From the NCBI GenBank assembly GCA_027488815.1, contig JAIYAX010000006.1, forward strand, positions 1 to 34,184: a stretch of 34,184 bases of DNA, given 5' to 3'. Shown in pieces: positions 1-19,443 of this stretch. The stretch's first letter is position 1. Every line of letters starts with the position of its first letter. Made by a program: the position numbers and the translations under genes. The notes beneath the pieces were generated by a model. It had not been told where the DNA came from, searched no databases, and saw only the letters and a program-made list of their open reading frames with translations. The DNA is from Cytophagaceae bacterium (GTDB taxonomy: Bacteria > Bacteroidota > Bacteroidia > Cytophagales > JAIYAX01).

Positions 1-579
1 ACTGTCATTTGGGTTCTAGCTTCGGTTTTTTCAACCAGTTGCAAAGATGAATGCGTTTGTGGACCACCGGGCACTTTCAGGATCACCACACAAGGCCTTG
101 ATCTAAAGGCTTATCAAACGCAGGGCTTTGGTATCAAACCGGTCATTGATTCAGCTTTTGGTATTCAAATCGACTTCAAACAGCTTTCTGAACGAATAGC
201 CCTCAAAGCGAATACAGGCTCAGACTTTTTTGGAAATGCAGCCTACGCATGCAGTTGCATTGGGCCTTCTTATGAGGTTCCGGATCCTGTAAATGAAATT
301 AATTTGTACCTGATCAATCCCCTTCAGGGAGATACCACATTGGTTTCTGATAAATTCAGGACCAATATATTTTATGGTCAAGAGCCAATCACCCTGGACT
401 CTGCCGTTTTTTACATGAATGCTTTTAAAGGAAACTATTATACCCCAGCTTTCTTTGGCTTTACCCTTGAACTGGTGGAGCCTTCACTGTTTTCAGGAGG
501 CAGGCAAATCCAATGTGTAACAAAACTTAAGTCAGGGAAGGTCTTTACTGCTTCTACTCAGAACATTTATTTTAAATGA
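1..579 (+). CDS. Uncharacterised lipoprotein, 5' end missing
   Basis: The frame is open from the first base, so the start lies upstream of the window. The visible part is about 192 residues. A hydrophobic stretch followed by FSTSC near residue 14 looks like the end of a lipoprotein signal peptide, with the Cys as lipidation site. It is followed at once by a Cys-rich segment (KDECVCGPPG). The rest is mixed beta-type sequence with no domain I can name. It probably sits in the outer or inner membrane facing the periplasm. The next gene starts 22 bases downstream on the same strand, so they may be co-transcribed. Function unknown; the lipoprotein call rests on the Cys context only. Confidence 0.7.
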   Translation, partial: TVIWVLASVFSTSCKDECVCGPPGTFRITTQGLDLKAYQTQGFGIKPVIDSAFGIQIDFKQLSERIALKANTGSDFFGNAAYACSCIGPSYEVPDPVNEINLYLINPLQGDTTLVSDKFRTNIFYGQEPITLDSAVFYMNAFKGNYYTPAFFGFTLELVEPSLFSGGRQIQCVTKLKSGKVFTASTQNIYFK

Positions 580-601
580 GGTTCATTAAAGGTTTTCATC
601 A

Positions 602-1492
602 ATGAATAGCAGGAAAATCTTTCAGAACATCCTTCAAGCTTTTTTTCCTTTTGGAGCCTTAGTTTCTATTTATAGTATACGCTTCTTCTTTGAAACAAAT
701 TTATTTCGTAGTCATTTGATTATTATTCCTATTGCTTCTTTGTGTTATGCCTTCATAATTAGGAATTCTGCTGATCGAAAAATACTTTTTCTTTATTTCT
801 ATATAGTAATGGTGATTTTTAGCTTTCCAATTCTGATATGGTATTGGAGTAAAGGTTTAGTCATAAGCTTACTTATCCCGGCTCCGTTTATTATTTACTC
901 TGCTTATCAATGGATAAAACCACCTGCTAAATGGCCAGTAACTACTTTGATCTTCCTGATCTATTTAGGAATTCTCATTTATGCTGTCGGTCAAGCCTCC
1001 CTGAAAAGGCCAGATAAGAAAATAATTACCCAAATAAACCAACAGCATCTGGATGCATTTGTCAAGGATGGGAAAAGGATAAGTTTTAAAAGTGAACAGA
1101 TCTACCTGATGGAATACTACACTTACTGGTGCGGTCCATGCCTTCAGAAACTCAAAGCATTGAAGCCTTTGACTTCGGAGTTTCCACAAGTAAAGTTTGT
1201 GATTGTTCACTGCGCAGCTTTGGAAGAAAAAGGTAAAAAACTTCCGTCTACGTTTTTGGATAATTACCCAGGGTTTGAACTGTGGACTGATCCTGATACA
1301 AGTCTGGTTTCACAATTCTCAGAAGGCTCAATTCCATTAACAATCATTATGAATGGTAACGGTAAGGTGTATGACCACGAAGTTGGATACCTACCAAAAG
1401 AAAGTATTCAATGGCTTCGCTTAACCTTACCAGAAGCTGATCGTGCAAACCTATTGCTCTTTGAAAACACCCATTTATCCAACTCAAAATGA
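602..1492 (+). CDS. Membrane-anchored thioredoxin-like protein (TlpA/ResA type)
   Basis: This 296-residue protein has about four or five hydrophobic segments in its first ~130 residues and a soluble thioredoxin-like domain after about residue 140. The redox motif WCGPC is at residues 176-180. An IPLT segment near residue 244 supplies the expected cis-proline. In the thioredoxin family such domains exchange disulfides with exported substrates, so it probably acts at the periplasmic face. A multi-span N-terminus is unusual, since TlpA/ResA proteins normally have one anchor. The N-terminal coding part is visibly more AT-rich than its neighbours. The stop overlaps the next start as ATGA, so translational coupling to the exported protein is likely. 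Redox fold fairly sure; substrate unknown. Confidence 0.8.
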   Translation: MNSRKIFQNILQAFFPFGALVSIYSIRFFFETNLFRSHLIIIPIASLCYAFIIRNSADRKILFLYFYIVMVIFSFPILIWYWSKGLVISLLIPAPFIIYSAYQWIKPPAKWPVTTLIFLIYLGILIYAVGQASLKRPDKKIITQINQQHLDAFVKDGKRISFKSEQIYLMEYYTYWCGPCLQKLKALKPLTSEFPQVKFVIVHCAALEEKGKKLPSTFLDNYPGFELWTDPDTSLVSQFSEGSIPLTIIMNGNGKVYDHEVGYLPKESIQWLRLTLPEADRANLLLFENTHLSNSK

Positions 1493-2079
1493 AAACTGTA
1501 GCCTTCATTTTCTTCCTCTTGACATGCCTGACAAGTGCGTCTAAAGCGCAGCAAAAGAAAATGGATCTGGCTGAGCGCTGGCGTGATAAACCTAAGCCCA
1601 TCTTTATCACTTCTTTTGACTCGGCTTACTACTGGAATCAAAAAAACATACGGCGTCAGGGTGGAACCTTTTACGCCGAACTGGATACCTTGAATCAAGT
1701 GCAGGTGTTGATGCTGGGTGAGCGATTAGGCTGTGAGGATACCCTTTGCTACCGCCTGATTTCAGTTGCAGATGGTTCCATTTTTCTAGACATCACCACC
1801 GAAATGATGCGTCCTCCTTTTTCCGTTGCCATCTACAAAATAGACGCTGACAATAGCTTGTACACTCAATCCGGGCTACCCAAGCTGGAGCGATGGAAAT
1901 ACGGCGTTCACCATAGCTACAGGCCTGCCCCAATTGGCAGCCCTATTCTGGAAACGAATGAGGAGCGTGCTACAGCAGCGGTTTCCTTTGAAACCAATGC
2001 TTTCAAAGACGCCGAAATGCTGTATGTGATGGTTTCCAGTCGCTATACCTGGGTGCATGGGTATGTAAAGCTCCCCTGA
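1489..2079 (+). CDS. Exported protein of unknown function
   Basis: This 196-residue protein starts with a typical signal peptide (MKTVAFIFFLLTCLTSASKA, cleavage probably before QQ near residue 21). The mature part is rich in aromatic residues and has two Cys close together (CEDTLC, about residues 77-82), which could form a disulfide. Its ATG overlaps the stop of the thioredoxin-like gene (ATGA), so the two are probably translated together. An exported Cys-containing protein encoded beside a periplasmic thioredoxin could be its substrate, but that is inference. No known family recognised. It converges with the NADH dehydrogenase gene, with only 6 bases between the two stops. Confidence 0.75.
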   Translation: MKTVAFIFFLLTCLTSASKAQQKKMDLAERWRDKPKPIFITSFDSAYYWNQKNIRRQGGTFYAELDTLNQVQVLMLGERLGCEDTLCYRLISVADGSIFLDITTEMMRPPFSVAIYKIDADNSLYTQSGLPKLERWKYGVHHSYRPAPIGSPILETNEERATAAVSFETNAFKDAEMLYVMVSSRYTWVHGYVKLP

Positions 2080-2085
2080 TCAGGC

Positions 2086-3408
2086 TTAAGTTTCCTGCGT
2101 TTGATCCAGCGTGTAGGGCTTTATAAATGGCCTGATAATAAGCCTGTTGCCTCTGTCAAACGTAATGTAGTGGTACACCCAGTTGCTGAAGATCACTACT
2201 TTGTTTCTAAAACCGGCGATCGAAAAAAGATGGACAAACATCCAAACCGCCCAGGCCATAAACCCGTGGAATGTAAATCCCGGTAAATCCACTACGGCTT
2301 TGTTGCGACCTACAGTGGCCATTGATCCCTTGTCATTGTATACAAAGGCTTTCATGGTTGAACCTGTGGTTAATCGGTAGAGGTTTGAAGCCAGAAGCCG
2401 GCCCTGCTGCTGAGCTACAGGTGCCAGCATAGGATGACCGTTAGGGTTTTCGGCTGTGCTCATCAGAGCGATGTCACCCAGTGCGAATACGTTTTCAGTT
2501 CCGTTCACCTGATTGTACTCGTTCACCAATAGCCGGTTTCCTCTGCCAATATTCTCGGCTTGAAAGCCTGGGATCACATTGCCCATAACTCCTGCTGCCC
2601 ATACAAGTGTCTCTGTTGGAATCTCTTCCCCATTGGAAAGAACAGCTTTTCGACCATCAAAACTCTTGACAACCGTATCCAAAATAACGGTGACGCCAAA
2701 CTTACGGGTATACTCCAGGGCTTTCTGACTGGATTTCTCTGACATCGCCGCCAGCAGCCTGCCGCTACCTTCTATTAGGAATACCTTCATCAGGCTCATA
2801 TCAAGCTCGGGGTAGTCATTTGGTAAAATATGCAGTTTGAGCTCTCCCAAGGCTCCTGCCACTTCTACTCCGGTAGGTCCGCCTCCTACAATCACAAAGT
2901 TGAGCAATCGTTGCTTTTCGGCAGGGTCTCTCACAATGACGGCTTTTTCCATACACTGCAAAATGTTGCTACGCAGGTCAAGGGCCTGAGGGATTTGCTT
3001 GAGCGGAAAAGCCTTTTTGTAAATCTCCTGATTGCCAAAATAATTGGTTCGTGAGCCATTTGCCACAATGAGGTAATCGTAGGTAAGCTCACCAATGGAA
3101 GTGATCACTTTGTTTTTCTGCAACTGAATCTCATTGACCTCAGCCAGCCTGAAATAGAACTCTTTAAAGCCTTCAAAAACCTTACGAAGAGGCTCTGCAA
3201 TGGAGTCGGGCTCGAGGCCTGCCGTGGCTACCTGATAAAGCAAGGGTTGAAAAGTATGGTAGTTGTGTCTGTCAAACATCACTACCTGAAAGAACCCTTC
3301 CGGTAAATGACGGACAAACTCAATTCCGGCGAAACCTCCCCCGATAATCACAACCCTGTTCTTTACCGTGTCAGGGATCTGAATGGTATTTTTTAAATCT
3401 TCTGTCAT
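2086..3408 (-). CDS. ndh: Type II NADH:quinone oxidoreductase (NDH-2)
   Basis: This 440-residue protein is normal in length for NDH-2. It oxidises NADH and reduces membrane quinone without pumping protons. An FAD-binding Rossmann motif GGGFAG is at residues 23-28 and a second, NAD(H)-binding motif GGGPTG is at 175-180. The FAD-contacting ALGD lies near residues 309-312, followed by the family AQQQG quinone-site motif at 332-336. The C-terminal ~60 residues carry hydrophobic and amphipathic stretches (AWAVWMFVHLFSIAGF and following) that typically attach the enzyme to the inner membrane. It is the last gene of a minus-strand run and starts 1 base after the M28 lipoprotein stop. Family assignment strong. 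Confidence 0.93.
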   Translation of the reverse strand: MTEDLKNTIQIPDTVKNRVVIIGGGFAGIEFVRHLPEGFFQVVMFDRHNYHTFQPLLYQVATAGLEPDSIAEPLRKVFEGFKEFYFRLAEVNEIQLQKNKVITSIGELTYDYLIVANGSRTNYFGNQEIYKKAFPLKQIPQALDLRSNILQCMEKAVIVRDPAEKQRLLNFVIVGGGPTGVEVAGALGELKLHILPNDYPELDMSLMKVFLIEGSGRLLAAMSEKSSQKALEYTRKFGVTVILDTVVKSFDGRKAVLSNGEEIPTETLVWAAGVMGNVIPGFQAENIGRGNRLLVNEYNQVNGTENVFALGDIALMSTAENPNGHPMLAPVAQQQGRLLASNLYRLTTGSTMKAFVYNDKGSMATVGRNKAVVDLPGFTFHGFMAWAVWMFVHLFSIAGFRNKVVIFSNWVYHYITFDRGNRLIIRPFIKPYTLDQTQET

Positions 3409-3409
3409 G

Positions 3410-4384
3410 TTATTCGTTGTAAACTGATGTTAATACGGTTTGTCCTACGGCTTTTAAGGTGGCTGGGTCTATAATGGCCATGTTGTCCTGATGGGTATGC
3501 CAGTAGGCTCCAAAATAAACAGGTCCCCCGTGGCTGTACTCAATGATGTCGATGGTTGGTATCTGTGAAATGGTGTTAATGAAATAATGGTCGTCAACAA
3601 TTTCCGGGGCATCCAATGGAATAAAGTACTGCTGATAGCCCAATCTCGATGCTGTTGACCATATTTTATCCACAACATTGGGGGCAAATTTTCTGGAAAT
3701 CCCTTCCCGGGCAAAGCGTGCATTTCTGGCTCCAACCATATCCAGCAAAACACCAAAAAATGCGCTGTAGTTTGCCTGATGCTTATTTTTTGACCAATAC
3801 TGACTTCCCAGGCACCAGCTGTCGGCATCACTTTCGGAAGGGTTGCCCTGGTCTTCAACATCCAGGAGCAACAGATCGACCCCTACCTGTAGTGAATCAG
3901 CATTTAGCGAAATCTGCCTGGCAATTTCCAGCAGTACTGCTACCCCACTGGCACCATCATTTGCCCCATCGATGGGTTCAGATTTACGTAATGTATCCTG
4001 ATCAGCCAGATAGCGTGTATCCCAATGGGCCATCAGCAAAATTCGCTTCTTCAGCTCCGGCTTAAAGGAGGCAATGATATTTCTGGCAGGCATTTCAACA
4101 CGGTCCCAACGGACGGCTTTGAAGTTTTGCTCTTGTACTGCTGCCCCACAATTCCTTAAAAAACCGGACAGATAGTTACCGCAGGCATAATGTGCCGAAC
4201 TGCCAGGCACTCTGGGGCCAAAATCCACTTGCTTCTGCGTGTAGGCATAGGCACTGTCTGCATCGAAAACAGGTGCAATCCTCAGAGGAGGCACACTTTT
4301 GTTTTCAGAAGCTTTTTCCTTTGAGCCTCCGCAGGCATAAACCAACATCAACAGGCTTAGCGACCAGAAGTAACTACTCCTCAT
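3410..4384 (-). CDS. M28-family zinc lipoprotein, glutaminyl-peptide cyclotransferase-like
   Basis: This 324-residue lipoprotein has a lipobox VYAC with Cys18. The body is an M28 / glutaminyl cyclase fold. Visible elements are LMAHWDTR (His120), GANDGASG (Asp143), DVEDQG (Glu177/Asp178), DDHYF near 264 and YWHTHQD (296-298), matching the spread of zinc and catalytic residues in this family. Glutaminyl cyclases convert N-terminal Gln to pyroglutamate; M28 relatives are aminopeptidases. The NWxRxExPxRN-like region and the overall length favour the cyclase-like branch, but I cannot separate the two activities from sequence alone. The start overlaps the cysS 3' end by 11 bases, and the stop is 1 base from the ndh start. 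Confidence 0.85.
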   Translation of the reverse strand: MRSSYFWSLSLLMLVYACGGSKEKASENKSVPPLRIAPVFDADSAYAYTQKQVDFGPRVPGSSAHYACGNYLSGFLRNCGAAVQEQNFKAVRWDRVEMPARNIIASFKPELKKRILLMAHWDTRYLADQDTLRKSEPIDGANDGASGVAVLLEIARQISLNADSLQVGVDLLLLDVEDQGNPSESDADSWCLGSQYWSKNKHQANYSAFFGVLLDMVGARNARFAREGISRKFAPNVVDKIWSTASRLGYQQYFIPLDAPEIVDDHYFINTISQIPTIDIIEYSHGGPVYFGAYWHTHQDNMAIIDPATLKAVGQTVLTSVYNE

Positions 4385-5861
4385 ATGCCCGGTATGATCC
4401 TGTTTTCAAATCTTTGATCAACAGACCCATTTCTTTAAATCTAGCCCTAATCTGGTCTACTTTGCCATAATCTTTTGCTGCCTTTGCCTCCCGGTAAATC
4501 TCCATCAGTAAATCCAGAGGAGCCGAAAGTTCGGGATGGTTCTCATCAGCGATGCCCAAAATCTCTTCGGTAAGCAAAGAAAACTGACTTTGCAGCTTGT
4601 CGAACAATGGCTGATCAAAAGAAGCGGCAGGTATCTGGTTGTTTTGTAAAGCGTTGATTTTCTTGATCATTCCAAATACGGCTGCTAGACAAACGGCAGT
4701 ATTTAGGTCATCATCCAGTCCGGCAAAGGCATCCAGACAGAGTTGATTTACCTCAGACTCCTGGGTTGGATCCGCCTGTGCACCTAATTGAGAAGCATCA
4801 AAATGCTGGAGAATAAGTCTGGCATTCAATATCTTACGATAGGCTTTGGCGGCAGCCTGCAATGCCTCATTGCTGAAATCCAGCGGGCTTCGGTAGTGAG
4901 CCTGAAGCATAAATAACCGGATGGTCATAGGGCTATAGACCTGAGTCAAAGCAGGGTGGCTTCCGCTAAAAAACTCACTCAGGTTAATGAAATTGCCCAA
5001 AGACTTCCCCATTTTCTGACCATTGATGGTGATCATGTTGTTATGAACCCAGTACTTAACCGGATGTGGGTTGCCTGCAGCAGTAGACTGTGCAAGTTCG
5101 CACTCATGATGGGGAAAGAGCAGGTCCATCCCTCCGGTATGAATATCAAACTGCCTGCCGAGGTACTTGTGACTCATAGCGGAGCACTCGATGTGCCAAC
5201 CCGGAAAACCAACACTCCAGGGAGAAGGCCAACGCATAATATGTTCAGGGGCTGCTTTTTTCCATAATGCAAAGTCAAGCGGATTTCTCTTTTCATCCTG
5301 ACCCTCAAGATCCCGGGTTCCGGACAATTGATCTTCAGGAATTCTGCCGGACAAAATCCCATACTCGCCGGATTTGCGGTAAGCCTCAATGTCGAAGTAG
5401 ACAGATCCATTCACTTCATAGGCAAGGCCCTTGCCTAGAATGGTTTGTATCATCTCAATTTGTTCTGAGATATGACCTGAGGCACGGGGTTCGATGGAGG
5501 GAGCTTTCACCCCAAGTTTTCGCATGGCATCCTGATACGATAAAGTATACCGCTGGGCAATTTCCATCGGTTCAAGCTGCTCCACTCTGGCCTTTTTAGC
5601 GATTTTGTCTTCACCATCATCAGCGTCTTGCTCCAGGTGGCCCACATCGGTAATGTTTCTCACATACCTCACTTTGTACCCTTGCCACTCCAGATACCTG
5701 CGCAACACATCAAAAGCCACAGCAGGGCGTGCATGGCCTAAGTGTGGTTCACCATAAACGGTCGGCCCGCATTGGTAAATGCCCACATAAGGCGGACTCA
5801 AAGGTTGGAAAACTTCTTTTTTACCGCTTAGGGTATTGGTAAGAACTAACGGGGAAGGCAT
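4374..5861 (-). CDS. cysS: Cysteinyl-tRNA synthetase
   Basis: This class I synthetase charges tRNA-Cys in the cytoplasm. It has 495 residues, slightly longer than the E. coli enzyme. The HIGH motif is present as HLGH (residues 40-43) and the KMSKS loop as KMGKS (283-287). Zinc ligands are recognisable as Cys31, Cys226 (WHIECSAM), His251 and Glu255 (HHECE), with spacing as in the known enzyme. The C-terminal anticodon-binding helical part is complete. The 3' end overlaps the start of the M28 lipoprotein gene by 11 bases. The upstream endonuclease-family gene ends 21 bases before the cysS start, so all four minus-strand genes may share a transcript. Confidence 0.96.
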
Positions 5862-5882
5862 GAATAATGGTGCAATTGCTGT

Positions 5883-6962
5883 TTACTCAGCAGAACTGAA
5901 CTCAAAGGTACAACCAATGGGGAAATGATCAGAGAATTTAAAACGGTGATCCACCATATGTTGCACTGGCCTCAGTTTAAGGTCAAAAAAGATCTGATCA
6001 ATTCTCAAAAACCTGAATCTGCCATTGTAAGTAAACCCAAACCCTCTCCCGGCTTTCTCGTGGCCATTCAAAAACTTCTTTCTGAACAATTGATAAACAT
6101 ACCCATAGGGCAGCTCATTGAAATCTCCGCATATGACCACCGGATGTTTGCTTTCTGAAGCATGTTCGATTAAAGCCTCTGCTTGCTGTGCTCTTGGCAG
6201 GTACCTTTCTTTGAGCCGCCTGATCACCTGGTACCATTGAGGCCGATCCTCTTCGCTTAACCGAAGTTTCAATACCTTCTTTTCCTGAATACTGTTGGAT
6301 ATCAAATGGGCGTTGTATACCCTTATTTTGCCTGCCGGATGCTCTATATCGGCCCAGACCACCCGGTTACCCGGATTTTTAGCTTTATTGATTTCACCTT
6401 TGGCTTTGATCGGATAGCGACTGGCAATGAGTGAACCCGTCATGTCGCAGCAAACCCCATCAATATTTTTCATCCCTTCCATAAAATAGCAATACGAGTA
6501 GCCTTGTTTTTTGAGCTTTTGAATAAAATTCAAGGGGTTTTTACCCGGTTTATAATAGACTTCCTGAAGGCAAAGAATATCTGATCTCAGTTGAGCCACC
6601 TCATTCATGTGTCTTTCGATTTTTTCAAGTGGTCGCTGGTCTTTGGGAACTAAAGCTCCAAAAAAACGAAGGTTAAAGCTGATGATTCTGATGTTTCGAT
6701 TTTGACTGGCTTCCTGAACCCCTTGCCCCCAGGTGGATTTCAATACCGGAACAGAGGCCAATAGGAGCAGAATTGGGAAAAGTAGTGTCCAACTTCTCTT
6801 CCAGCTGAGCCATAGCAACTGAAGAAGAGCAAATACCGGAACAGCAGGAACCACAAATGCAAACAGACCAGCCCAGGGCAGCACAGTCGGCCTAAGGGTG
6901 GGCAGCAGCAGAATGATCACTCCCGCAAAGGTGATCAGCAGATGTAGGAATAGTCTCAGCAA
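5883..6962 (-). CDS. Membrane-anchored endonuclease/exonuclease/phosphatase family protein
   Basis: This 359-residue protein has an N-terminal hydrophobic region with about three segments (residues ~5-73), then an EEP (DNase I-like) domain. Motifs appear in order: SFNLRFFG (Asn97), LCLQEVYY (Glu134), YNAHL (His219), GDFNELP (279-285), RIDQIF (320-325) and SDHFPIG (His346), so all the usual metal and catalytic positions look intact. This fold hydrolyses phosphodiesters or phosphomonoesters of nucleic acids, lipids or inositides; the substrate cannot be told here. The N-terminal anchor suggests the domain acts at or outside the membrane. It is the first gene of the minus-strand run and starts opposite rimP, with a candidate promoter box at 6994-7001. 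Confidence 0.88.
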   Translation of the reverse strand: MLRLFLHLLITFAGVIILLLPTLRPTVLPWAGLFAFVVPAVPVFALLQLLWLSWKRSWTLLFPILLLLASVPVLKSTWGQGVQEASQNRNIRIISFNLRFFGALVPKDQRPLEKIERHMNEVAQLRSDILCLQEVYYKPGKNPLNFIQKLKKQGYSYCYFMEGMKNIDGVCCDMTGSLIASRYPIKAKGEINKAKNPGNRVVWADIEHPAGKIRVYNAHLISNSIQEKKVLKLRLSEEDRPQWYQVIRRLKERYLPRAQQAEALIEHASESKHPVVICGDFNELPYGYVYQLFRKKFLNGHEKAGRGFGFTYNGRFRFLRIDQIFFDLKLRPVQHMVDHRFKFSDHFPIGCTFEFSSAE

Positions 6963-6993
6963 AATAGGTCTACAAGGTATCGAAGTTCAGAGG

Positions 6994-7001
6994 CAAAAAT
7001 A
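6994..7001 (-). promoter_or_regulatory. Candidate -7 box for the minus-strand endonuclease-cysS operon
   Basis: On the minus strand this reads TATTTTTG, matching the Bacteroidota -7 consensus TAnnTTTG. It lies 31 bases upstream of the ATG at 6962. No good -33 TTG is seen at the expected distance, so the call is tentative. Confidence 0.4.
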
Positions 7002-7020
7002 CCATTCTGGAAGCCTCATA

Positions 7021-7049
7021 TTGACTTTATAAAAAAAATGCTATATTTG
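7021..7049 (+). promoter_or_regulatory. Promoter of the rimP-nusA-infB operon
   Basis: TTG at 7021-7023 and TATATTTG at 7042-7049 match the Bacteroidota sigma-A type -33 and -7 (TAnnTTTG) elements, with 18 bases between them. Transcription would begin near 7055, giving a leader of about 50 bases that contains the 7075-7097 hairpin. Confidence 0.75.
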
Positions 7050-7074
7050 CACTCTATTTGTAAAAAAGCTTACT

Positions 7075-7097
7075 GAGGGGACGGTGTCCCCTCTTTT
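7075..7097 (+). promoter_or_regulatory. Leader hairpin with T-run before rimP (possible attenuator)
   Basis: GAGGGGAC (7075-7082) and GTCCCCTC (7086-7093) form a perfect 8-bp, mostly G:C stem with a three-base GGT loop. TTTT follows directly, then GTTAT. The hairpin lies between the promoter and the rimP ATG at 7109, so it is in the 5' leader of the operon. Its shape is that of a small intrinsic terminator or a translation-start-proximal regulatory stem. Which of these it is remains inference. Confidence 0.65.
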
Positions 7098-7108
7098 GTT
7101 ATACTCCC

Positions 7109-7579
7109 ATGAAAGTTGAAGATCTGATCAGACAAAAGCTCGAGGCGGACATTCTGAGTCCGGAGCAATTTCTGTTAAAGGTAGAGCATCATGGTCATGG
7201 AGGGGGTCGTCAAAAACTTACGATCATAGTAGACAGCACAGGCCCCCTTACAGTGGACCATTGCTCCGAAATAAGTCGTGCTCTGGATACTTTTCTGGAA
7301 GAAAGTAACCTGATCGATGCCGCTTATCATTTGGAAATAAGCTCACCGGGGGTTGATGTGCCATTTACAGACCGCAGGCAATACCTTAAAAATGCCGGAC
7401 GGGAGGTACTGATCTGGCTACAAGATGAAGAACAAGTCAAAGGAGTGTTGAAAGGAATAAGTGGAGAAGAAGTACAAATAGAGGTCACCCGAAAAGAAAA
7501 AGGAAAAAAACCCTGGAAAGAAGTGGTAAGTATTCCCTTCAGTAAGATCATAAAAACAAAAGTTCAGCTTACCTTTTAG
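7109..7579 (+). CDS. rimP: Ribosome maturation factor RimP
   Basis: RimP binds the 30S subunit during assembly in the cytoplasm. The 156-residue length is normal. The N-terminal domain contains the HGHGGGRQKLTIIVD segment and the DHCSEISRALD helix, followed by the family signature LEISSPGVDVPFTDRRQYLKN. The C-terminal SH3-like half ends in a basic, beta-rich segment. It is the first gene of the classic rimP-nusA-infB operon, 8 bases before nusA. The ATG at 7109 is chosen because it follows the leader hairpin and begins the conserved N-terminus. Confidence 0.95.
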   Translation: MKVEDLIRQKLEADILSPEQFLLKVEHHGHGGGRQKLTIIVDSTGPLTVDHCSEISRALDTFLEESNLIDAAYHLEISSPGVDVPFTDRRQYLKNAGREVLIWLQDEEQVKGVLKGISGEEVQIEVTRKEKGKKPWKEVVSIPFSKIIKTKVQLTF

Positions 7580-7587
7580 TTAAAGCG

Positions 7588-8829
7588 ATGGATAATTTAA
7601 ACCTGATTGAATCATTCGCCGAGTTTGCCAAATTCAAAAACATCGACCGGCCTACCATGATGCGTATTTTGGAAGATGTGTTTCGCACCATGATTCGCAA
7701 AAAGTATGTGACGGATGAAAACTTTGACGTCATCATCAACGTGGACAAAGGCGACCTTGAAATCTGGCACTTCAGAGAGATCGTAGAAGACAATCCTGAA
7801 GAGTTCGACGAAAACAAACAGATCAAACTGACTGACGCTAAAAAAATTGAGACCGACTTTGAAGTTGGAGAAGAAGTAGCCGAAGAAATCAAGCTAGAGG
7901 ATTTTGGACGCAGACTGGTCATGACGGCAAGGCAGACACTGATCCAAAAGGTAAAAGACCTTGAAAAGGATATTCTTTACCAGAAATACAAAGACCTGGT
8001 AGGTGAAATCATCAGCGGAGAAGTGTATCAGATTTTAGGAAAGGAAATCCTGTTGATCGATGCTGATGGCAACGAGCTGGTACTTCCAAAATCAGAACAA
8101 ATTGGCAAAGATCGTTTTCGTAAAGGCGATAACGTGAGGGCTATTGTCCATAAAGTAGATATGCAAAATGGTGCCCCCAGGATTGTGCTTTCCCGCACCT
8201 CTCCTATATTTCTGGAGCGCTTGTTTGAGTCAGAAGTTCCGGAGGTGTTTGATGGGTTGATCCAAATCAAGAAAGTGGTTCGTGAGCCAGGTGAACGTGC
8301 CAAAGTAGCCGTTGAGTCTTTTGACGACCGGATCGATCCCGTAGGTGCTTGTGTGGGCATGAAAGGTTCAAGAATTCACAGCATCGTTCGTGAATTAAAC
8401 AATGAAAACATTGATGTGATTAACTTCACAGACAATCAAGAACTGTTTATCGCCCGTGCCCTTAGTCCGGCTAAGATTTCCAGCATGAAAATCGATGCTT
8501 CTGAAGGTCGTGTTTCAGTCTATTTGAAGCCTGATCAGGTATCGTTGGCGATCGGTCGTGGCGGGCAGAATATCAAGCTGGCTTCCCGATTAGTCGGACT
8601 TGAAATAGACGTATTCCGTGAGCTGGAGGAGTACGAAGAGGAAGATGTGGTACTGGATGAGTTTTCAGATGAAATCGATGAGTGGATCATTGAAGAATTG
8701 AAACGAGTTGGTCTTGATACAGCCAAAAGTGTGCTTGCTGTTTCCAAAGATGACCTCCTTCGTCGTACTGAACTTGAAGAAGAAACGATTGACGATGTGA
8801 TCAGCATTCTTCGTCAGGAATTCGAATAA
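7588..8829 (+). CDS. nusA: Transcription termination/antitermination factor NusA
   Basis: NusA binds RNA polymerase and RNA and modulates pausing, termination and antitermination. At 413 residues this is the short form without the two extra C-terminal repeats of gammaproteobacteria. The N-terminal polymerase-binding domain spans ~1-125 and an S1 domain ~135-203 (GEIISGEVYQ onwards). KH1 has GMKGSR at 257-262 and KH2 has GRGGQN at 323-328. An acidic tail (EEYEEEDVVLDEF) leads into one helix-hairpin-helix-like end segment. It lies between rimP and infB, as in most bacteria. Confidence 0.96.
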   Translation: MDNLNLIESFAEFAKFKNIDRPTMMRILEDVFRTMIRKKYVTDENFDVIINVDKGDLEIWHFREIVEDNPEEFDENKQIKLTDAKKIETDFEVGEEVAEEIKLEDFGRRLVMTARQTLIQKVKDLEKDILYQKYKDLVGEIISGEVYQILGKEILLIDADGNELVLPKSEQIGKDRFRKGDNVRAIVHKVDMQNGAPRIVLSRTSPIFLERLFESEVPEVFDGLIQIKKVVREPGERAKVAVESFDDRIDPVGACVGMKGSRIHSIVRELNNENIDVINFTDNQELFIARALSPAKISSMKIDASEGRVSVYLKPDQVSLAIGRGGQNIKLASRLVGLEIDVFRELEEYEEEDVVLDEFSDEIDEWIIEELKRVGLDTAKSVLAVSKDDLLRRTELEEETIDDVISILRQEFE

Positions 8830-8851
8830 GCCTCAAACGGGTAATTATTAC

Positions 8852-8859
8852 TAATTTTG
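8852..8859 (+). promoter_or_regulatory. Possible internal -7 box upstream of infB
   Basis: TAATTTTG matches TAnnTTTG and lies 17 bases before the infB ATG, in the only gap of the operon. No -33 TTG is visible at the right distance and the leader would be very short, so chance occurrence in AT-rich DNA is quite possible. Confidence 0.25.
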
Positions 8860-8876
8860 TTGATTAAATCAGTTGA

Positions 8877-11834
8877 ATGTCAGATAAAAGGATAAGCCAG
8901 GTAGCCAGAGAGCTGAACGTCGGAAGAAATACCATCACAGAGTTCTTAGCTAAAAAAGGACATAGTGTGGACTCTTCTCCGAATGCTAAAATCAGCGATG
9001 AGCAATACCAGCTTTTGTTGAAGGAGTTTGAAGCCTCAGCGAGTATTAAAAAAGAGGCTTCGGAGCTTACCATCGGCAAAAAACACGAAAACATTACTGC
9101 TTCAACTGCGGCCAACGGAGGCCGTAAGCGTGATGACGATGATGATGATTTTGTGACAGGCAAGTCCCTGAGTACGGAAGACATCATGATCGCTGCAAAG
9201 CAGAGTGTAAAAACGGAAGAGCCGAAAGAAGCCGCCAAAACTGTAGCCCCTGCACCGGATCCAGTTAAAGAACCTGAGCCTAAGGCTGACTTAACTCCTA
9301 CTGCTGCACCAGTCGATGATTTGATTAGTGCAGGCAGAAATAAGATTCCCGGATTAAAAGTGCTTGGGAAAGTTGATTTGAGTGGTGGCAAGAAAAAAAC
9401 CTCTCCGCCACCTCCTCCCCCATCTGCACCTAAGCCTGCACCTGTTTCCGTAACAGCTACACCTGTTGCCAAAACTGAAACGAAGCCTGAACCACCACTG
9501 GTCAGCGTTAAAGAAGAGGCTCCTGAACCAGTGATTGAGGAAAAAGTATCGGTAGAGACGGTTGATGTTGAAAAAGAAGAAACAAAAACCATCGAGCTGA
9601 AAGCTAGTCCGGTACCCATCCAAGAGTTAGTGCAACCCAAATTGGTGGAAGCAAGAGCTGATCAATTGAAAGGATTGACGGTTTTGGGTAAAATCGAGCT
9701 GCCGGTAGAGAAAAAGAAAAAACCAGAAGAAAGCGGGCAGGATAAAAAGAAAAGAAAGCGTCTTGTTGCCTCATCCTCTGACAAGAAGCTGATTATCAAT
9801 CCACCAACAACGGATTACAACAGACCTGGAACTCAAAATCGTCCCGGAGGAGGACAGAACAGAGGACCACAAAATAGAGGACCAAGACCTGCTACACCTC
9901 TGGCTCCCAAGCAGGAATTGAGCGATAAAGAAATTCAGGATCACATTAAGGCCACACTAGCGAGGCTTTCAGGGCAAAAATCTTCTCAGCCTGGCGCCAA
10001 TCGTGCCAAATACCGAAAAGAAAAGCGTTCTGCGATCGCTGAAGCTCACGAAGAGCGGATGCAAGCCGAGCAAAAGAGCAAGAACATACTCAAGGTGACC
10101 GAGTTTATTTCAGCTAATGACCTCGCCTCTCTGATGGATGTAAGCGTGAATGAGGTGATCAAGGTATGTCTGGGTTTGGGCATGTTCATCTCCATCAACC
10201 AGAGACTTGATGCCGAAGCCATTACCATCATTGCTGATGAGTTCGGCTATGAAGTTGACTTTAGCTCCTCTGAAGAGGAAACCGTCGTTGAAGAGCTGGT
10301 TGACAGCCCCGAAGACCTAAAAGACCGTGCTCCGATTGTCACCATCATGGGTCACGTCGATCACGGTAAAACATCTTTGCTCGATTACATACGCAGCTCA
10401 AAAGTGACGGCATCAGAGGCAGGGGGCATCACACAGCATATTGGAGCATACGACGTACTTACCGATAATGGTAAGCGAATTACATTTCTGGATACTCCCG
10501 GTCACGAAGCGTTTACAGCGATGCGTGCCAGAGGTGCTAAAGTGACCGATATTGTCATCATTGTGATTGCAGCGGATGACAGGGTCATGCCACAAACCAA
10601 AGAAGCCATCAACCATGCATCGCTTGCAGGTGTGCCCATTGTGTTTGCTTTGAATAAAGTTGACAAACCTGCAGCCAACCCTGAAAAAATCAAGGAAGAG
10701 CTTGCCAACATGAATTATCTGGTGGAAAGCTGGGGTGGAAAGTACCAAAGTGAAAACATATCTGCCAAGTCTGGAGTGGGTGTACCTGAGCTACTTGAAA
10801 AAGTACTATTGGAGGCTGAATTGTTGGAGTTGAAAGCCAATCCCGCCCGAAATGCGAACGGAACCGTAATTGAAGCCTCACTCGATAAGGGTCGTGGCTA
10901 CGTGGCTACTCTGCTGGTGCAGACCGGAACCATGAAAGTGGGCGATATCATCCTTGCAGGTGCTCACTATGGCCGTGTAAAAGCGATGACGGATCATAAA
11001 GCAACAAGACTGAAATCTGCAGGGCCCTCTACTCCTGTTCAAGTTCTTGGACTTGACGGGGCACCTCAGGCAGGTGACAAATTCAATGTGATGGAAAGCG
11101 AGCGTGAAGCACGTGAAATTGCAACCAAACGTGAGCAGATTTTGCGTGAGCAGGCTATCCGGACCAGAAAGCATATTACCCTTGATGAAATCGGAAGGCG
11201 TTTGGCCATCGGGTCATTCAAGCAGCTCAACATCATTGTAAAAGGGGATGTGGATGGCTCAATCGAAGCACTTTCCGACTCTTTGCTACGCTTGTCGAAC
11301 GAAGAGGTACAAGTGAGTATCATCCACAAAGCTGTGGGTCAGATTTCAGAGTCAGACGTACTGTTGGCTTCAGCCTCTGATGCGGTTATCATCGGCTTCC
11401 AGGTAAGACCCAGCAACAGTGCACGAAAACTGGCTGAGCAGGAGGAAATTGAAATTCGTCTTTACTCCATTATCTACGACGCCATCAATGACGTGAAAGA
11501 TGCCATTGTGGGTATGCTTGCACCGAAACTTGAAGAAGTGATTACTGGAAATATTGAAGTAAGGGAAGTGTTCCGTATCTCAAAAATCGGTACTGTGGCA
11601 GGATGTTATGTAACAGATGGCATGATAAAGAGAGCCAACCAGATTAGGGTTATCCGAGATGGTATCGTGCTTCATACCGGCGAGATTGATGCTTTGAAAC
11701 GTTTCAAAGATGATGTCAATGAAGTGAAGTCAGGATTTGAATGTGGCCTAAGCGTGAAAGGCTTTAACAATCTCGAAGTCGGTGACACCATTGAAGGATT
11801 TGAGCAGAAGGAGACGAAGAGAACTTCGATTTAA
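8877..11834 (+). CDS. infB: Translation initiation factor IF-2
   Basis: IF-2 is the GTPase that brings initiator tRNA to the ribosome. An N-terminal helix-turn-helix-like IF2N region ([20 protein letters not shown]) is followed by a long, low-complexity, charged and Pro-rich linker up to about residue 400. This linker includes an aspartate run near residue 88 and a proline run near 178. A second IF2N-type region ([18 protein letters not shown]) comes next. The GTPase domain has GHVDHGKT at 492-499, DTPGH from 539 and NKVD from 593, then the beta-barrel and C-terminal domains. The 985-residue length is usual for this phylum. A strong hairpin terminator follows 14 bases after the stop. Confidence 0.97.
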
Positions 11835-11847
11835 AAACTAAGCGAAT

Positions 11848-11876
11848 AAAAAAAACCGGCTTCTGCCGGTTTTTTT
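11848..11876. terminator. Rho-independent terminator, probably bidirectional
   Basis: AAAAACCGGC (11851-11860) and GCCGGTTTTT (11865-11874) form a perfect 10-bp stem around a TTCT loop. A-rich sequence lies before the stem and T-rich sequence after it, so it can work in both directions. It lies between the convergent infB and the minus-strand exported-protein gene ending at 11896. Confidence 0.9.
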
Positions 11877-11895
11877 ATGGTCAATACCTCCCCTT

Positions 11896-12336
11896 TTAAT
11901 TCTCCAATTCACCCGTGTAGTTAAGCTTGATCACCTGACTCTTCAGGCGTCCTGCCACTACAAAATTTTCCTTTTCATCAAAGCTGCGATCATCCTTCAG
12001 GAAAAACATGCGCTCTACTTTGGTTTCTATTTTTTTACCACCTGTTTCGCACACATAGCGCACTTTCAGCTTAATACCTGCGTTTTTGTTTTCGCTACGG
12101 CGTGAATTGTAGGCCACCAGTTTGTAGCTCACCCCGATTTTCAATCCGGCATCATTGACGAGTGTAATGAGTGGTGTGTTTTTGTTGATGTAGAGGTCAA
12201 TTGTTTGATCAGGTCCGGAAACTACCGTACCATTTTGGTCAGCCTTTACCTGGCTTATCTTCATGGCAAGCTTATCCTGTGCAAAAACAGATGTGGCGAG
12301 GGCCATTGCAAAAAGAGAAATCAAAAGTTTTTTCAT
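11896..12336 (-). CDS. Small exported protein of unknown function
   Basis: This 146-residue protein has a clear signal peptide (MKKLLISLFAMALATSVFA, cleavage before QD near residue 20). The mature domain is predicted to be beta-rich, with basic segments and a VCETGGKKIETKVER stretch. It contains one Cys and no recognised motif. It is probably a small periplasmic or surface protein. The gene is divergent from the DUF4177-like gene at 12409 and convergent with infB, so it is likely a single transcription unit ending at the shared terminator. Function unknown. Confidence 0.75.
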   Translation of the reverse strand: MKKLLISLFAMALATSVFAQDKLAMKISQVKADQNGTVVSGPDQTIDLYINKNTPLITLVNDAGLKIGVSYKLVAYNSRRSENKNAGIKLKVRYVCETGGKKIETKVERMFFLKDDRSFDEKENFVVAGRLKSQVIKLNYTGELEN

Positions 12337-12392
12337 GGTTTTGTATTTTAGGTTCTGTCAGGCGACATTCGTGCCATCGTTTAATATTCATC

Positions 12393-12419
12393 CAAATTTA
12401 TCTCAAAAATGAACAGCAA
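12393..12419 (-). promoter_or_regulatory. Candidate promoter for the exported protein at 11896-12336
   Basis: On the minus strand TAAATTTG (12400 to 12393) matches TAnnTTTG, and a TTG lies at 12419-12417, 16 bases upstream. The spacing is a little short. The -33 part overlaps the first codons of the divergent gene starting at 12409, so the two transcripts may interfere. Confidence 0.45.
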
Positions 12420-12822
12420 CAGCTCACTTTCCAGATTTTACCTGATCGGTATGCTTGCCTTTGCAACACTTTTCGGTGTATTGGCATTCAAATCAGCAAG
12501 CCCTAAGCCTGCCACATTTGAATACCGTCAGTTTTCCACCATTGAGTCCATTATACCCGGCGGACTAGGTCGCTCCAGAGTAGTTTCAACCGATGCAAGC
12601 GGAACTACAGTTGAAAAAGAACTTCTCAACTTTTACAGCTTAGTTGGGATCAACTTTGGGAATATTTCCAACAACGACCGTGTGATTGTTGATAAAATCA
12701 ACGAATACACCAACGAGGGATGGGAATTGTATTCAGTAACTACAGGCGTACAGAGTCCTACAGACAGCGGCAAAGCAGGTATCTTTATTACCAGGTATCT
12801 GTTTAAAAAAGCAAAGGGATAA
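12409..12822 (+). CDS. Exported or membrane-anchored DUF4177-like protein
   Basis: This 137-residue protein has one hydrophobic N-terminal segment (about residues 10-27, RFYLIGMLAFATLFGVLAF) that serves as a signal peptide or anchor. The C-terminal half contains DKINEYTNEGWELYSVTTG followed by a final strand, FITRYLFKKAKG. The N-EGWEL-V pattern with a closing beta strand resembles the small DUF4177 fold, whose biochemical role is unknown. The gene is divergent from the exported gene to its left and ends at a hairpin terminator that it shares with the minus-strand gene at 12873. The DUF4177 assignment is by motif memory and only moderately sure. Confidence 0.7.
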   Translation: MNSNSSLSRFYLIGMLAFATLFGVLAFKSASPKPATFEYRQFSTIESIIPGGLGRSRVVSTDASGTTVEKELLNFYSLVGINFGNISNNDRVIVDKINEYTNEGWELYSVTTGVQSPTDSGKAGIFITRYLFKKAKG

Positions 12823-12841
12823 TCCAATCCTTTCTCAATCA

Positions 12842-12872
12842 AAAAGCCACTTAGCCTCAGGTTGAGTGGCTT
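12842..12872. terminator. Hairpin terminator between convergent genes
   Basis: AAAAGCCACT (12842-12851) pairs with AGTGGCTTTT (about 12865-12874), with an inner CCT/AGG that may extend the structure. T-rich sequence follows on the + strand and A-rich sequence precedes it, so it probably stops both the gene ending at 12822 and the minus-strand operon. Its right edge reaches the stop codon of the minus gene at 12873. Confidence 0.8.
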
Positions 12873-13190
12873 TTAGTTTTTTATCCGGTCACCATAAAAG
12901 TAGATGTAGGTATTCTCCTCGGCTTTGCATCTCTTGGCCATTTCAACCGTAGCGTTGATAAATTGAGTGGACTCCTTATCGATTGCTTTGGTGAGGCTGA
13001 GGGAAAGCTCTGAAATAAGATATTGCATTTGAAGCCGATTAAAGACTGCTATCCCATAGGGGTCAATAAACTTAAGGCAGATCATATTTTTATCATTGAT
13101 CTGTTCCAGAAGTTTTTCAAAATGTCCGTTTTCTGAAACGGAGGCGAGTTCCATGCCCAACTCGTCTTCCAAAGTAACTGTAAATGCCAC
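12873..13190 (-). CDS. Small soluble protein of unknown function
   Basis: This 105-residue protein has no signal peptide or membrane segment. The central motif LKFIDPYGIAVFNRLQMQYL is the most distinctive part and looks conserved in style. The second half is helical, with a Cys near residue 88 and the aromatic end TYIYFYGDR. It lies 12 bases downstream of the MFS transporter and is probably the last gene of the DUF3667-MFS operon, ending at the shared terminator. I do not recognise the family. Confidence 0.7.
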   Translation of the reverse strand: MAFTVTLEDELGMELASVSENGHFEKLLEQINDKNMICLKFIDPYGIAVFNRLQMQYLISELSLSLTKAIDKESTQFINATVEMAKRCKAEENTYIYFYGDRIKN

Positions 13191-13202
13191 TCAATTTCCT
13201 GG

Positions 13203-14432
13203 TTAAGGTTCGTTAAAATTTAGGTCAGCCGTAAAAGTCTCCCTCAACCCGGTATAAGCCAGAAAGGTGATTAAAAAGACCAACAGTCCTGTAACGCTTG
13301 CAGCTTGTATCATGTTACCTGAAAGCGAACGAAAAAATTCAAAACTGATCGTCAATGGGATAACAGTACCTCTGATAAAGTTGGGGACAGTCGTTGTAAC
13401 TGTTGCTCTCAAGTTTGTGCCAAACTGCTCGGCTGCCATAGTGACAAACAGGGCCCAGTATCCGGAAGAGAAGCCAAGAAACAAACAGCAGGAATAAAAA
13501 AAGAAAACGGTCCCAAAGGGCATCCACAGATAAAGAAGCACAGCGAACATACAAAGCAGGACAAATGCCAAAACCACTTTCTTGCGGGTTCGAAGCACTT
13601 GGGAAAGCAATCCGCTGGCCAAATCACCCAAGGCCAGACCCAAATAACAATACATCACTGCCTTGCCTGCTGATACGTCAATCGTAAGGCCCATTTCTTT
13701 TGCAAACTCAGGCGAGAAAGTGATCAGGATTCCCACGACAAACCAAATGGGTATACCGATAAATATGCAGGCAGCATAGCGTTTCAATCTATCGATTTTG
13801 GTAAACAGACTTAAAAAATTGCCCCTGCTGACCATCTCTTGTTTCATTTTTGTGTAAACCCCTGACTCATAAACACCAACCCTCAGTAAAAGCAGGCAAA
13901 GCCCCATTCCCCCTCCTATAAAATAGGCAATTCTCCAGTCAAAAGTTGCCGCCACAAAGTAGGCCACCACAGCGCCAAGCATGCCAATGGTAGCAATGAG
14001 GGTAGTGCCATATCCCCTTTTCTCCTTTGGAAGTACCTCGGCTACAAGAGTAATCCCTGCGCCCAACTCCCCTGCCAGGCCAATCCCAGCAATGAATCTA
14101 AGCCATGCATATTGATCAAGGTTTTGCACCATCCCATTGGCTAGATTAGCTAATGAGTACATCAGAATAGAGCCAAACAACACCGAGAGTCTTCCTTTTT
14201 TATCACCGAGTATGCCCCAAAGCAAACCCCCGATCAGCATACCGGCCATTTGCATGTTGAGCAACAGGATCCCTTCGCTAACCAGTGTGCTCTCCGGTAC
14301 ACCAAGATCAACCAGACTAGGCCTACGAACAATGCTGAAAAGCAATAAATCATAGATGTCAACGAAATAGCCTAGTGCAGCTACAATCACAGGTGCACTG
14401 ATCACCCCATGGGCCAGGTTTTTTTTCGACAT
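13203..14432 (-). CDS. Major facilitator superfamily transporter (MHS/sugar-porter-like)
   Basis: This 409-residue protein has about 12 membrane segments. Loop 2-3 carries the family motif GILGDKKGR (73-81). The fourth-segment region has RFIAGIGLAGELG followed by EVLPKEKRG (132-140), as in the metabolite:H+ symporter and sugar porter branches. An acidic residue in the first segment (YFVDIYD, Asp25/Asp28) fits proton-coupled uptake. The substrate is not predictable; organic acids or sugars are typical for relatives. The start follows the stop of the DUF3667 gene by 1 base, so the two are almost certainly co-transcribed. Confidence 0.88.
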   Translation of the reverse strand: MSKKNLAHGVISAPVIVAALGYFVDIYDLLLFSIVRRPSLVDLGVPESTLVSEGILLLNMQMAGMLIGGLLWGILGDKKGRLSVLFGSILMYSLANLANGMVQNLDQYAWLRFIAGIGLAGELGAGITLVAEVLPKEKRGYGTTLIATIGMLGAVVAYFVAATFDWRIAYFIGGGMGLCLLLLRVGVYESGVYTKMKQEMVSRGNFLSLFTKIDRLKRYAACIFIGIPIWFVVGILITFSPEFAKEMGLTIDVSAGKAVMYCYLGLALGDLASGLLSQVLRTRKKVVLAFVLLCMFAVLLYLWMPFGTVFFFYSCCLFLGFSSGYWALFVTMAAEQFGTNLRATVTTTVPNFIRGTVIPLTISFEFFRSLSGNMIQAASVTGLLVFLITFLAYTGLRETFTADLNFNEP

Positions 14433-14433
14433 G

Positions 14434-15219
14434 TTAAACCAGTTTGTTCATTGCAAGGACAGCAACTACTGTAGAAAGTAAAGAGATGTAAAGCAGATAA
14501 CTCAAAATGTAGGTAACAACTGACCGCCAAAGGCTTTGAAACCAAGAATACGAAAAAGTAGAGATAGAAAATTGAATATAGACTAGCATATTAATCAATG
14601 CTCCGGCAATGGTGAACCCTTCGTACGTTCTTAAACCGTCAAGGCCGGCCCAAATCAGCAGCATGAGGACCATTGAGTACAAAGTCGATTGCCCTAGAAT
14701 ATACGAGTTGAATACCAGGTGCTCAGCAAAGTTGTACCTGGCTTTTTTGAACAACAGTTTAGAAATCCAGGCAGCGAAAGGCAAATACACAATACTGAGC
14801 AATGACATGTAGTTGCTGATAAAGCCCATCATTCTTTTAGAAACATCTTTCTGCTGCTCTGTAAGCCCCGGTTTTGTGGCTTGGGTAGCAATGGTATCGT
14901 CAAACAAACCGGTGCCGATCATCAATAGCGCTGAGAATGAAGCAGCTACAAACACATATTTCAAAGGAGTGTAGTAGGGGTTGGTTATTCCTTTGATATA
15001 GTCATTCACCACTTTCCCGGGTTTATAGGCTAGCCCCTTAATGGTCCTGAGTATTCCTTTTTCAAAACTGAAGTTGCTTTCAAAAAAGCTATACACCATA
15101 AAACCCATCGTAAATGGCACTACTCTGAGTTTCTGGCCACAGGCCGGGCAATACAGGCCGGTAAAGTGATGACCACAGTTAAGGCAATCCTGGGTATAAT
15201 CTGCGGGGTTGGGTTTCAT
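14434..15219 (-). CDS. DUF3667 membrane protein with N-terminal zinc ribbon
   Basis: This 261-residue protein begins with a zinc ribbon with Cys12, Cys15, Cys24 and Cys27 (CLNCGHHFTGLYCPACGQK). A conserved SFFESNF stretch and a GITNPYYTPLKY segment follow. About five hydrophobic segments fill the remainder. This matches the DUF3667 family of Bacteroidota inner-membrane proteins, whose function is unknown. It is the first gene of a three-gene minus-strand operon with the MFS transporter and the 105-residue protein. It might assist or regulate the transporter, but only co-transcription supports that. Confidence 0.85.
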   Translation of the reverse strand: MKPNPADYTQDCLNCGHHFTGLYCPACGQKLRVVPFTMGFMVYSFFESNFSFEKGILRTIKGLAYKPGKVVNDYIKGITNPYYTPLKYVFVAASFSALLMIGTGLFDDTIATQATKPGLTEQQKDVSKRMMGFISNYMSLLSIVYLPFAAWISKLLFKKARYNFAEHLVFNSYILGQSTLYSMVLMLLIWAGLDGLRTYEGFTIAGALINMLVYIQFSISTFSYSWFQSLWRSVVTYILSYLLYISLLSTVVAVLAMNKLV

Positions 15220-15263
15220 AGAAAGCTTATACTAATTCAGATACAGTTTCGTTTAGGGTTCAC

Positions 15264-15271
15264 TAGTTTTG
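15264..15271 (+). promoter_or_regulatory. Candidate -7 box for the TPR lipoprotein/CreD unit
   Basis: TAGTTTTG matches TAnnTTTG and lies 20 bases before the ATG at 15292. The -33 region has only a weak TTTC. It sits in the gap between divergent genes, where a promoter is needed. Confidence 0.45.
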
Positions 15272-15291
15272 CAATATAATGCTAGAGAGTC

Positions 15292-15855
15292 ATGAACAAG
15301 CCATTCCTTAAAATTATCCTCCTACAGCTTTTGCTTGCGTTAACGTTTGCATGCAGCAAGGACCAAAAAAAATCAGAAGTAGTGCAGATGACGCAGCAGC
15401 AGCGTCTTTTGGTACGAATTGATAGCCTTTCCAAGCTATGTCAAATCGATTTTGACCGCAACCCGGGTGCATTGAATCTGGAACTTCATCAGGATCTGGT
15501 AAAAAATCTTGAAGAATACGGATATATGTTTATCGATACCATAGCCCCAAAATACTTGGTAAAGGCAGCGAGAATGCACGAAGAAATCTTTAAAGACAAG
15601 CAAAAGGCTGTAAAGTTGTATGGGGAGATTTACAATCTGTTTCCAGATTTCCCGGATCGACCTATGATGGTTTTTTACCAGGGGAACGCCTACCACGACC
15701 TCAACGACACCACAAAAGCGATTAACATTTTTCAGTTTTTCATAAAAAATTACCCCGATCATCCCTTTGCTGATGATGCAGAAGGCATGATTAATTTGAT
15801 ACGCATGACTGAAGAAGAGCGAAACAAGCTTTTTGGAGGTGATATACCTTCCTGA
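15292..15855 (+). CDS. TPR-containing lipoprotein
   Basis: This 187-residue protein has a lipoprotein signal (LALTFAC, Cys21). The rest is helical. The segment from about residue 95 to 165 has two TPR-like helix pairs, seen in KAVKLYGEIYNLFPDFP and KAINIFQFFIKNYPDHP with a YHDLND turn between them. This resembles YbgF/BamD-type periplasmic scaffold proteins, but the protein is shorter and lacks a coiled-coil start. It probably mediates protein contacts at the membrane. CreD follows 33 bases downstream on the same strand. Partner unknown. Confidence 0.8.
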   Translation: MNKPFLKIILLQLLLALTFACSKDQKKSEVVQMTQQQRLLVRIDSLSKLCQIDFDRNPGALNLELHQDLVKNLEEYGYMFIDTIAPKYLVKAARMHEEIFKDKQKAVKLYGEIYNLFPDFPDRPMMVFYQGNAYHDLNDTTKAINIFQFFIKNYPDHPFADDAEGMINLIRMTEEERNKLFGGDIPS

Positions 15856-15888
15856 TTTTTCTTTTCACATTTTTTAAACTGCAATTAG

Positions 15889-17202: not shown

Positions 17203-17210
17203 TTAGCCCC

Positions 17211-19387: not shown

Positions 19388-19443
19388 GATTTGGTAAAAT
19401 AAGTAAGCGTAATTGAATAATCGTTTGTGCGTAGCTTGGGCGG

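Follow-up and report, generated by a model that had tools for sequence, protein, structure and literature searches.

A candidate attenuator of the rimP-leader kind ahead of the rimP-nusA-infB operon in Bacteroidota

The rimP-leader was called the most ubiquitous of attenuators by Naville & Gautheret (2010, PMC2965389), who proposed NusA as its regulator. Its consensus was given as GGGc...gCCC, with Firmicutes and Gammaproteobacteria as the groups named, and an additional upstream hairpin of reversed polarity was described for several of the Gammaproteobacteria (PMC2965389); the main text of that report, its supplement aside, makes no mention of the Bacteroidetes. In the summary given by a review (PMC12288461), NusA of B. 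subtilis stimulates termination in the leader of its own operon and thereby exerts feedback, and this nusA-operon leader is cited in PMC2965389 as being ~180 nt long. Closer to the DNA considered here, the published transcriptome of Flavobacterium psychrophilum (2021) is reported to include a structured rimP 5' element that is conserved in Flavobacteriaceae and has no Rfam matches (PMC9723704). The kind of element discussed below (rimP-leader, PMC2965389) and the F. psychrophilum example (PMC9723704) are already known to the extent that these two accounts describe them, and a literature search on the rimP leader in Bacteroidetes returned unrelated papers only. What is new in the current analysis is the breadth of the element in Bacteroidota, its extended motif, its spacing from the promoter and the reversed polarity of the stem in other classes of the phylum.

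The locus lies in a stretch of 34,184 nucleotides from a Cytophagaceae bacterium, which we refer to as the window. An earlier note, made from the letters of the window, had pointed to an 8-bp GC-rich stem with a 3-base loop and a following TTTT at 7075-7097, and direct reading of the sequence confirmed this. The 5' arm, GAGGGGAC (7075-7082, + strand), and the 3' arm, GTCCCCTC (7086-7093, +), both of which were also recovered by a pattern scan and by RNA folding, form 8 perfect pairs out of 8, 6 of them G-C, and enclose the loop GGT (7083-7085, +), whose length and sequence are variable among relatives. As in intrinsic terminators, the GC-rich stem lies directly 5' of a U-tract, TTTTGTTA (7094-7101, +), in which TTTT at 7094-7097 is the unbroken run; 6 of its 8 positions are T, and its U-score is 4.0, the median of 59 family leaders being 4.06. 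The T-run is followed by GTTATACTCCC and then by the rimP ATG at 7109, so that the start codon is 15 nt from the end of the stem (7093) and 11 nt from the end of the T-run, close to the 12-16 bases claimed before. As RNA, the 23-mer comprising the hairpin and the T-run has a minimum free energy of -14.8 kcal/mol (z = -3.97), with none of 200 shuffles equally stable, and both the exact hairpin sequence and its core GGGGACNNNGTCCCC, the latter even allowing 1 mismatch, have a single occurrence in the 3.37-Mb genome.

The gene order 3' of the hairpin was verified as rimP, nusA, infB. The first gene (7109-7579, +) encodes a ribosome maturation factor of 156 aa with a PF02576 match over the cut-off, its best NCBIfam matches being RimP models that score under their curated cut-offs. 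The assignments of nusA (7588-8829, +; 413 aa; TIGR01953, 372 bits) and infB (8877-11834, +; translation initiation factor IF2, 985 aa; TIGR00487, 797 bits) are each over the cut-off. Taken together, terminator-like patterns are no more frequent in the window than chance predicts (16 seen versus 20.7 expected), so that the pattern alone proves nothing and the case for the element has to be made from its position and conservation. The top terminator-like site listed in a scan of positions 1-20000 is a 15-pair hairpin with a T-run at 12842-12874 (+), which lies ~20 nt past an ORF at 12409-12822 and looks like an ordinary 3' terminator.

The promoter type of Bacteroidota combines a TAnnTTTG -7 consensus with a TTTG-type -33 motif (PMC7366714). 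In the window, TATATTTG at 7042-7049 (+) is an exact match to TAnnTTTG, and a predicted -33-like element, TTGAC (7021-7025, +), which resembles the TTTG-type motif (PMC7366714), lies 16 nt 5' of this box (18 nt counted from its TTG). Placed from the -7 box, the predicted transcription start would be at 7053-7056 (+) and the leader would be ~53-56 nt long, a prediction that fits the ~50-base leader proposed in the earlier note. Of 114 named rimP leaders among the matches listed, 104 have an exact TAnnTTTG 11-42 nt 5' of the stem, mostly at 23-31 nt, and in most loci of the order the hairpin lies 8 to 28 nt 3' of a TAnnTTTG-like box. The usual spacing in the named loci would put the stem ~20 nt past the predicted start. 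Given this conservation of the -7 box 5' of the hairpin, a transcription start downstream of 7097 is unlikely.

RimP is present in 50 of the 59 genomes of the order, which is probably Cytophagales, to judge from the best matches of its loci (Hymenobacter, Algoriphagus, Mongoliibacter and Cyclobacterium), and reading of the leaders found a similar hairpin and T-run before rimP in about 45 of these 50, with loops that vary in length and sequence and with distances of ~7 to >70 nt between the stem and the start codon. When the order set was joined to a 109-genome sample of the class, to give 136 leaders in 64 families, a single rule that required GGG in the 5' arm and at least 4 T in the 8 positions after the stem detected a terminator-shaped hairpin before rimP in 123 loci and 60 families; some of the other 13 loci have imperfect hairpins that the rule missed. 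The GGG/CCC core is present in 58 of the 60 families called, the GGG in the 5' arm having been required by the rule. Under a score cut that was applied by the same rule to both, 87% of the class leaders pass versus 1.9% of their dinucleotide shuffles, and this comparison is free of the pairing-selection bias that affects the family pair counts given below.

The earlier note had proposed that a covariance model be built from rimP leaders of Bacteroidota and searched for compensatory changes, and had made its reading depend on conservation of the stem in relatives; the hairpin proved to be conserved class-wide, and compensatory changes were found in the stem. A plain MAFFT alignment of the hairpins misaligned the 5' arms because the loop lengths differ, and a subset of near-equal length was taken for the covariance model. 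In a hand-picked set of 16 hairpins, double-sided changes affect 5 of 10 pairs, and the share of cells that pair is 93.8%, versus 86.1% in shuffles. In the representatives of 58 families, 66 cells carry double changes where shuffles give 11.4; this count is biased upwards by the choice of representatives for pairing, and the three central G-C pairs are invariant in these rows, part of the invariance being forced by anchoring on CCC and by the GGG rule. One further alignment (A3) was excluded from the pair counts, as it contains antisense copies of palindromic sites.

The stem is also nearly specific for rimP. In a scan of the named species collection (~85,000 species genomes), the extended motif GAGGGGAC-N3-6-GTCCCCTCTTT is, among the matches listed, directly 5' of rimP in 114 of 119 loci, with 4 undecidable where the locus ends and 1 elsewhere. 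The sole decidable match without rimP downstream among those listed is at 5083-5106 (-) of L117, from a Selenomonadales MAG. The motif is also carried by the laboratory species F. johnsoniae (L110). Specificity is lower for the core GGGGAC...GTCCCC alone, with 44 of 75 listed sites before rimP and 31 outside. We rejected the idea that the non-rimP sites are a transcription-factor operator, since at least 3 of the 9 inspected lie in an apparent coding sequence and at least 4 are ordinary 3' terminators. The bare palindrome GGGGACAATTTGTCCCC at L303, L305 and L306 (1501-1517 in each) lies inside what is apparently one conserved coding sequence, and this accounts for part of the off-target sites. 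For the hairpin covariance model, the rimP leader is the best or near-best match in many genomes; 11 of 12 further matches that were inspected lie where an ORF on the same strand ends, like ordinary 3' terminators, which indicates that the leader hairpin has the terminator form used by these genomes.

Class-wide conservation of the hairpin, together with its compensatory changes, lends good support to the earlier proposal of an intrinsic terminator or attenuator ahead of the nusA operon. We infer attenuation from the anatomy of the leader and from its conservation, and consider it probable that the hairpin and T-run are an intrinsic-terminator attenuator of rimP-nusA-infB, probably with feedback by NusA; that transcription is actually terminated in vivo at the T-run is, on the same sequence evidence, very likely. 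RNA polymerase would start at about 7053-7056 and would have transcribed hairpin and U-tract once it reached about +45, the terminator standing ~20 nt past the transcription start of the operon, and the polymerase would then either release an RNA of ~40-45 nt or read on into the operon. A strong terminator at such a place would cut expression of presumably essential genes unless read-through is substantial. The notion of a leader terminator that is weak by comparison with 3' terminators found no support, the leaders scoring no lower than a small and noisy comparison set of 17 sites.

The split between termination and read-through would be set by a factor whose target is either RNA polymerase during elongation or the hairpin. 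No antiterminator was found in the 104 leaders of named loci (matches listed), all of which are free of CCC 5' of the stem, and no stem-breaking fold appears among their minimum-free-energy folds, the stem being intact in each; nor is a larger conserved element visible beside the hairpin in the rimP leaders. A leader peptide was rejected as well, with an ATG in only 24 of the 104 pre-stem leaders and no short ORF conserved. The short leader, with neither a C-rich competing sequence nor a conserved short ORF, suggests that the split is most likely factor-set. NusA is the strongest candidate: it is encoded in the operon, and in B. subtilis it has been reported to stimulate termination in its own leader (PMC12288461); by analogy with this precedent, NusA is plausible as the sensor. 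As the product of the second gene, NusA would close a negative feedback loop in which more NusA means more termination. It is conceivable, if rather doubtful, that NusA (or RimP) reads the stem in the nascent RNA ~45 nt from the start by its sequence as well as by its shape. If this were true, recognition of GAGGGGAC/GTCCCCTC would represent a promoter-proximal, sequence-specific feedback switch on rimP-nusA-infB that operates without an antiterminator.

Other readings of the same anatomy have to be weighed against NusA-dependent attenuation. A constitutive partial terminator, by which the ratio of operon mRNA to initiation would be fixed at a low value with no feedback, would look the same in the DNA, and no sensor element is visible in the leaders. 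The recurrence of GAGGGGAC/GTCCCCTC before rimP across orders, however, is conservation far beyond the need of a fixed terminator, and feedback is what the review reports for B. subtilis (PMC12288461), so that we regard a purely constitutive device as unlikely. The conserved stem sequence, which suggests recognition, might instead mean that the attenuator is sensed by another factor that recognises the G-rich/C-rich stem, whether RimP (also considered by Naville & Gautheret, PMC2965389), IF2, NusG or a ribosomal protein, but the B. subtilis precedent belongs to NusA and a different sensor seems distinctly improbable. A hairpin at which RNA polymerase merely pauses, which the earlier note had entertained, is disfavoured by the position of the T-run directly 3' of the stem, as in terminators.

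The hairpin is close to the 5' end of the mRNA and 15 nt before the ATG, as might be expected of a post-transcriptional element that shields the 5' end of the mRNA or hides the start of rimP. Masking of the start site was the alternative offered in the earlier note and is disfavoured here: the stem is self-contained and unpaired with the start region in the minimum-free-energy fold, its distance from the start codon varies widely (~7 to >70 nt among relatives), and the leaders called have a T-run after the stem, although the rule demanded at least 4 T in 8. We therefore consider a post-transcriptional role very unlikely. The remaining reading, that the hairpin does no more than terminate transcription coming from upstream, could draw on the 11 of 28 order loci in which the closest long ORF upstream runs on the strand of rimP. 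This ORF is divergent, however, in the window and in 16 other order loci (17/28), from which it follows that the element is not needed for ending upstream transcription, and the hairpin is separated from the upstream gene by a promoter box; there is hardly any likelihood left for this reading. The divergent ORF of the window (5883-6962, -), with TTG as the first of its listed start codons, has weak matches to exodeoxyribonuclease III and endonuclease-exonuclease-phosphatase models, all of them below the cut-off.

Outside the class but within the phylum, 16 of 24 leaders pass a similar cut, versus 1.2% of shuffles, and several of those that fail it carry hairpins with a mismatch or a short stem that the rule missed. 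The stem sequence in these other classes is unrelated, and in some stems it is the 5' arm that is rich in C (TCGCCC...GGGCGA), opposite to the window motif. To judge from these leaders, the structure has been retained between classes of the phylum while its sequence has been replaced. The reversed polarity, with a C-rich 5' arm and a G-rich 3' arm before the T-run, is seen in L183, L190, L197, L198 and L200. In L177, tandem terminator-like hairpins, ggggggccgagacgcccctttttt and then GGCGCCCGT...ACGGGCGTTttttt, lie upstream of a RimP_N match and recall the tandem arrangement before rimP in E. coli. The conservation of the stem sequence throughout one class, next to unrelated terminator-shaped stems elsewhere, helps to separate the needs of termination from possible needs of recognition, and the compact template (promoter, 20 nt, terminator) is suited to a direct test of NusA feedback. 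A known but little-studied attenuator is here extended to a phylum with poorly understood transcription control.

The earlier note had suggested a comparison with the rimP-leader RNA known from other phyla, and this comparison held for shape, place and the GGG/CCC core and failed for the Rfam family. A scan of the window against Rfam, at gathering and at permissive thresholds, gave chance matches only. The 102-position rimP model RF01770, which shares its genomic place and its gene with our element, has no match in the window, and none of 39 order genomes exceeds its gathering cut-off of 47 bits; of 14 control genomes a single one passes, so that the model is narrow. The present Rfam model thus misses the Bacteroidota element. 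With its fit to the published description, and in the absence of recognition by RF01770, the element is filed as a rimP-leader in the broad sense and is not a member of RF01770. It resembles the rimP-leader (PMC2965389) as a short hairpin with G-rich 5' and C-rich 3' arms and a U-stretch in the 5' UTR of rimP-nusA-infB (a placement that in the window relies on the predicted start), as well as in having no antiterminator and a stem sequence that is conserved and nearly rimP-specific. The window fits that description except for where exactly the c-g pair lies: where the consensus has GGGc...gCCC, the class mostly has GAGGGGAC...GTCCCCTC; 40 of 56 families have A-T and 9 have C-G as the pair adjoining the GGG/CCC core, and the C-G is mostly one pair further in.

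The leader of E. coli K-12 metY-rimP, as read from its sequence, has GGGC...GCCC followed by seven T as the last hairpin before rimP; this hairpin is shared with the window, but E. coli has in addition a second, upstream hairpin of reversed polarity, whereas the window has one. With the B. subtilis nusA operon, the window would share an intrinsic terminator in the 5' leader, although a predicted ~55 nt replaces the ~180 nt cited for B. subtilis, and control by NusA would apply here by analogy with that summarized precedent. The F. psychrophilum element (PMC9723704) is, like ours, a structured 5' region of rimP, and is transcribed in that organism according to the published account; in its passages on the element, that account neither calls it a terminator nor ties it to the rimP-leader, and here the element is traced across the phylum.
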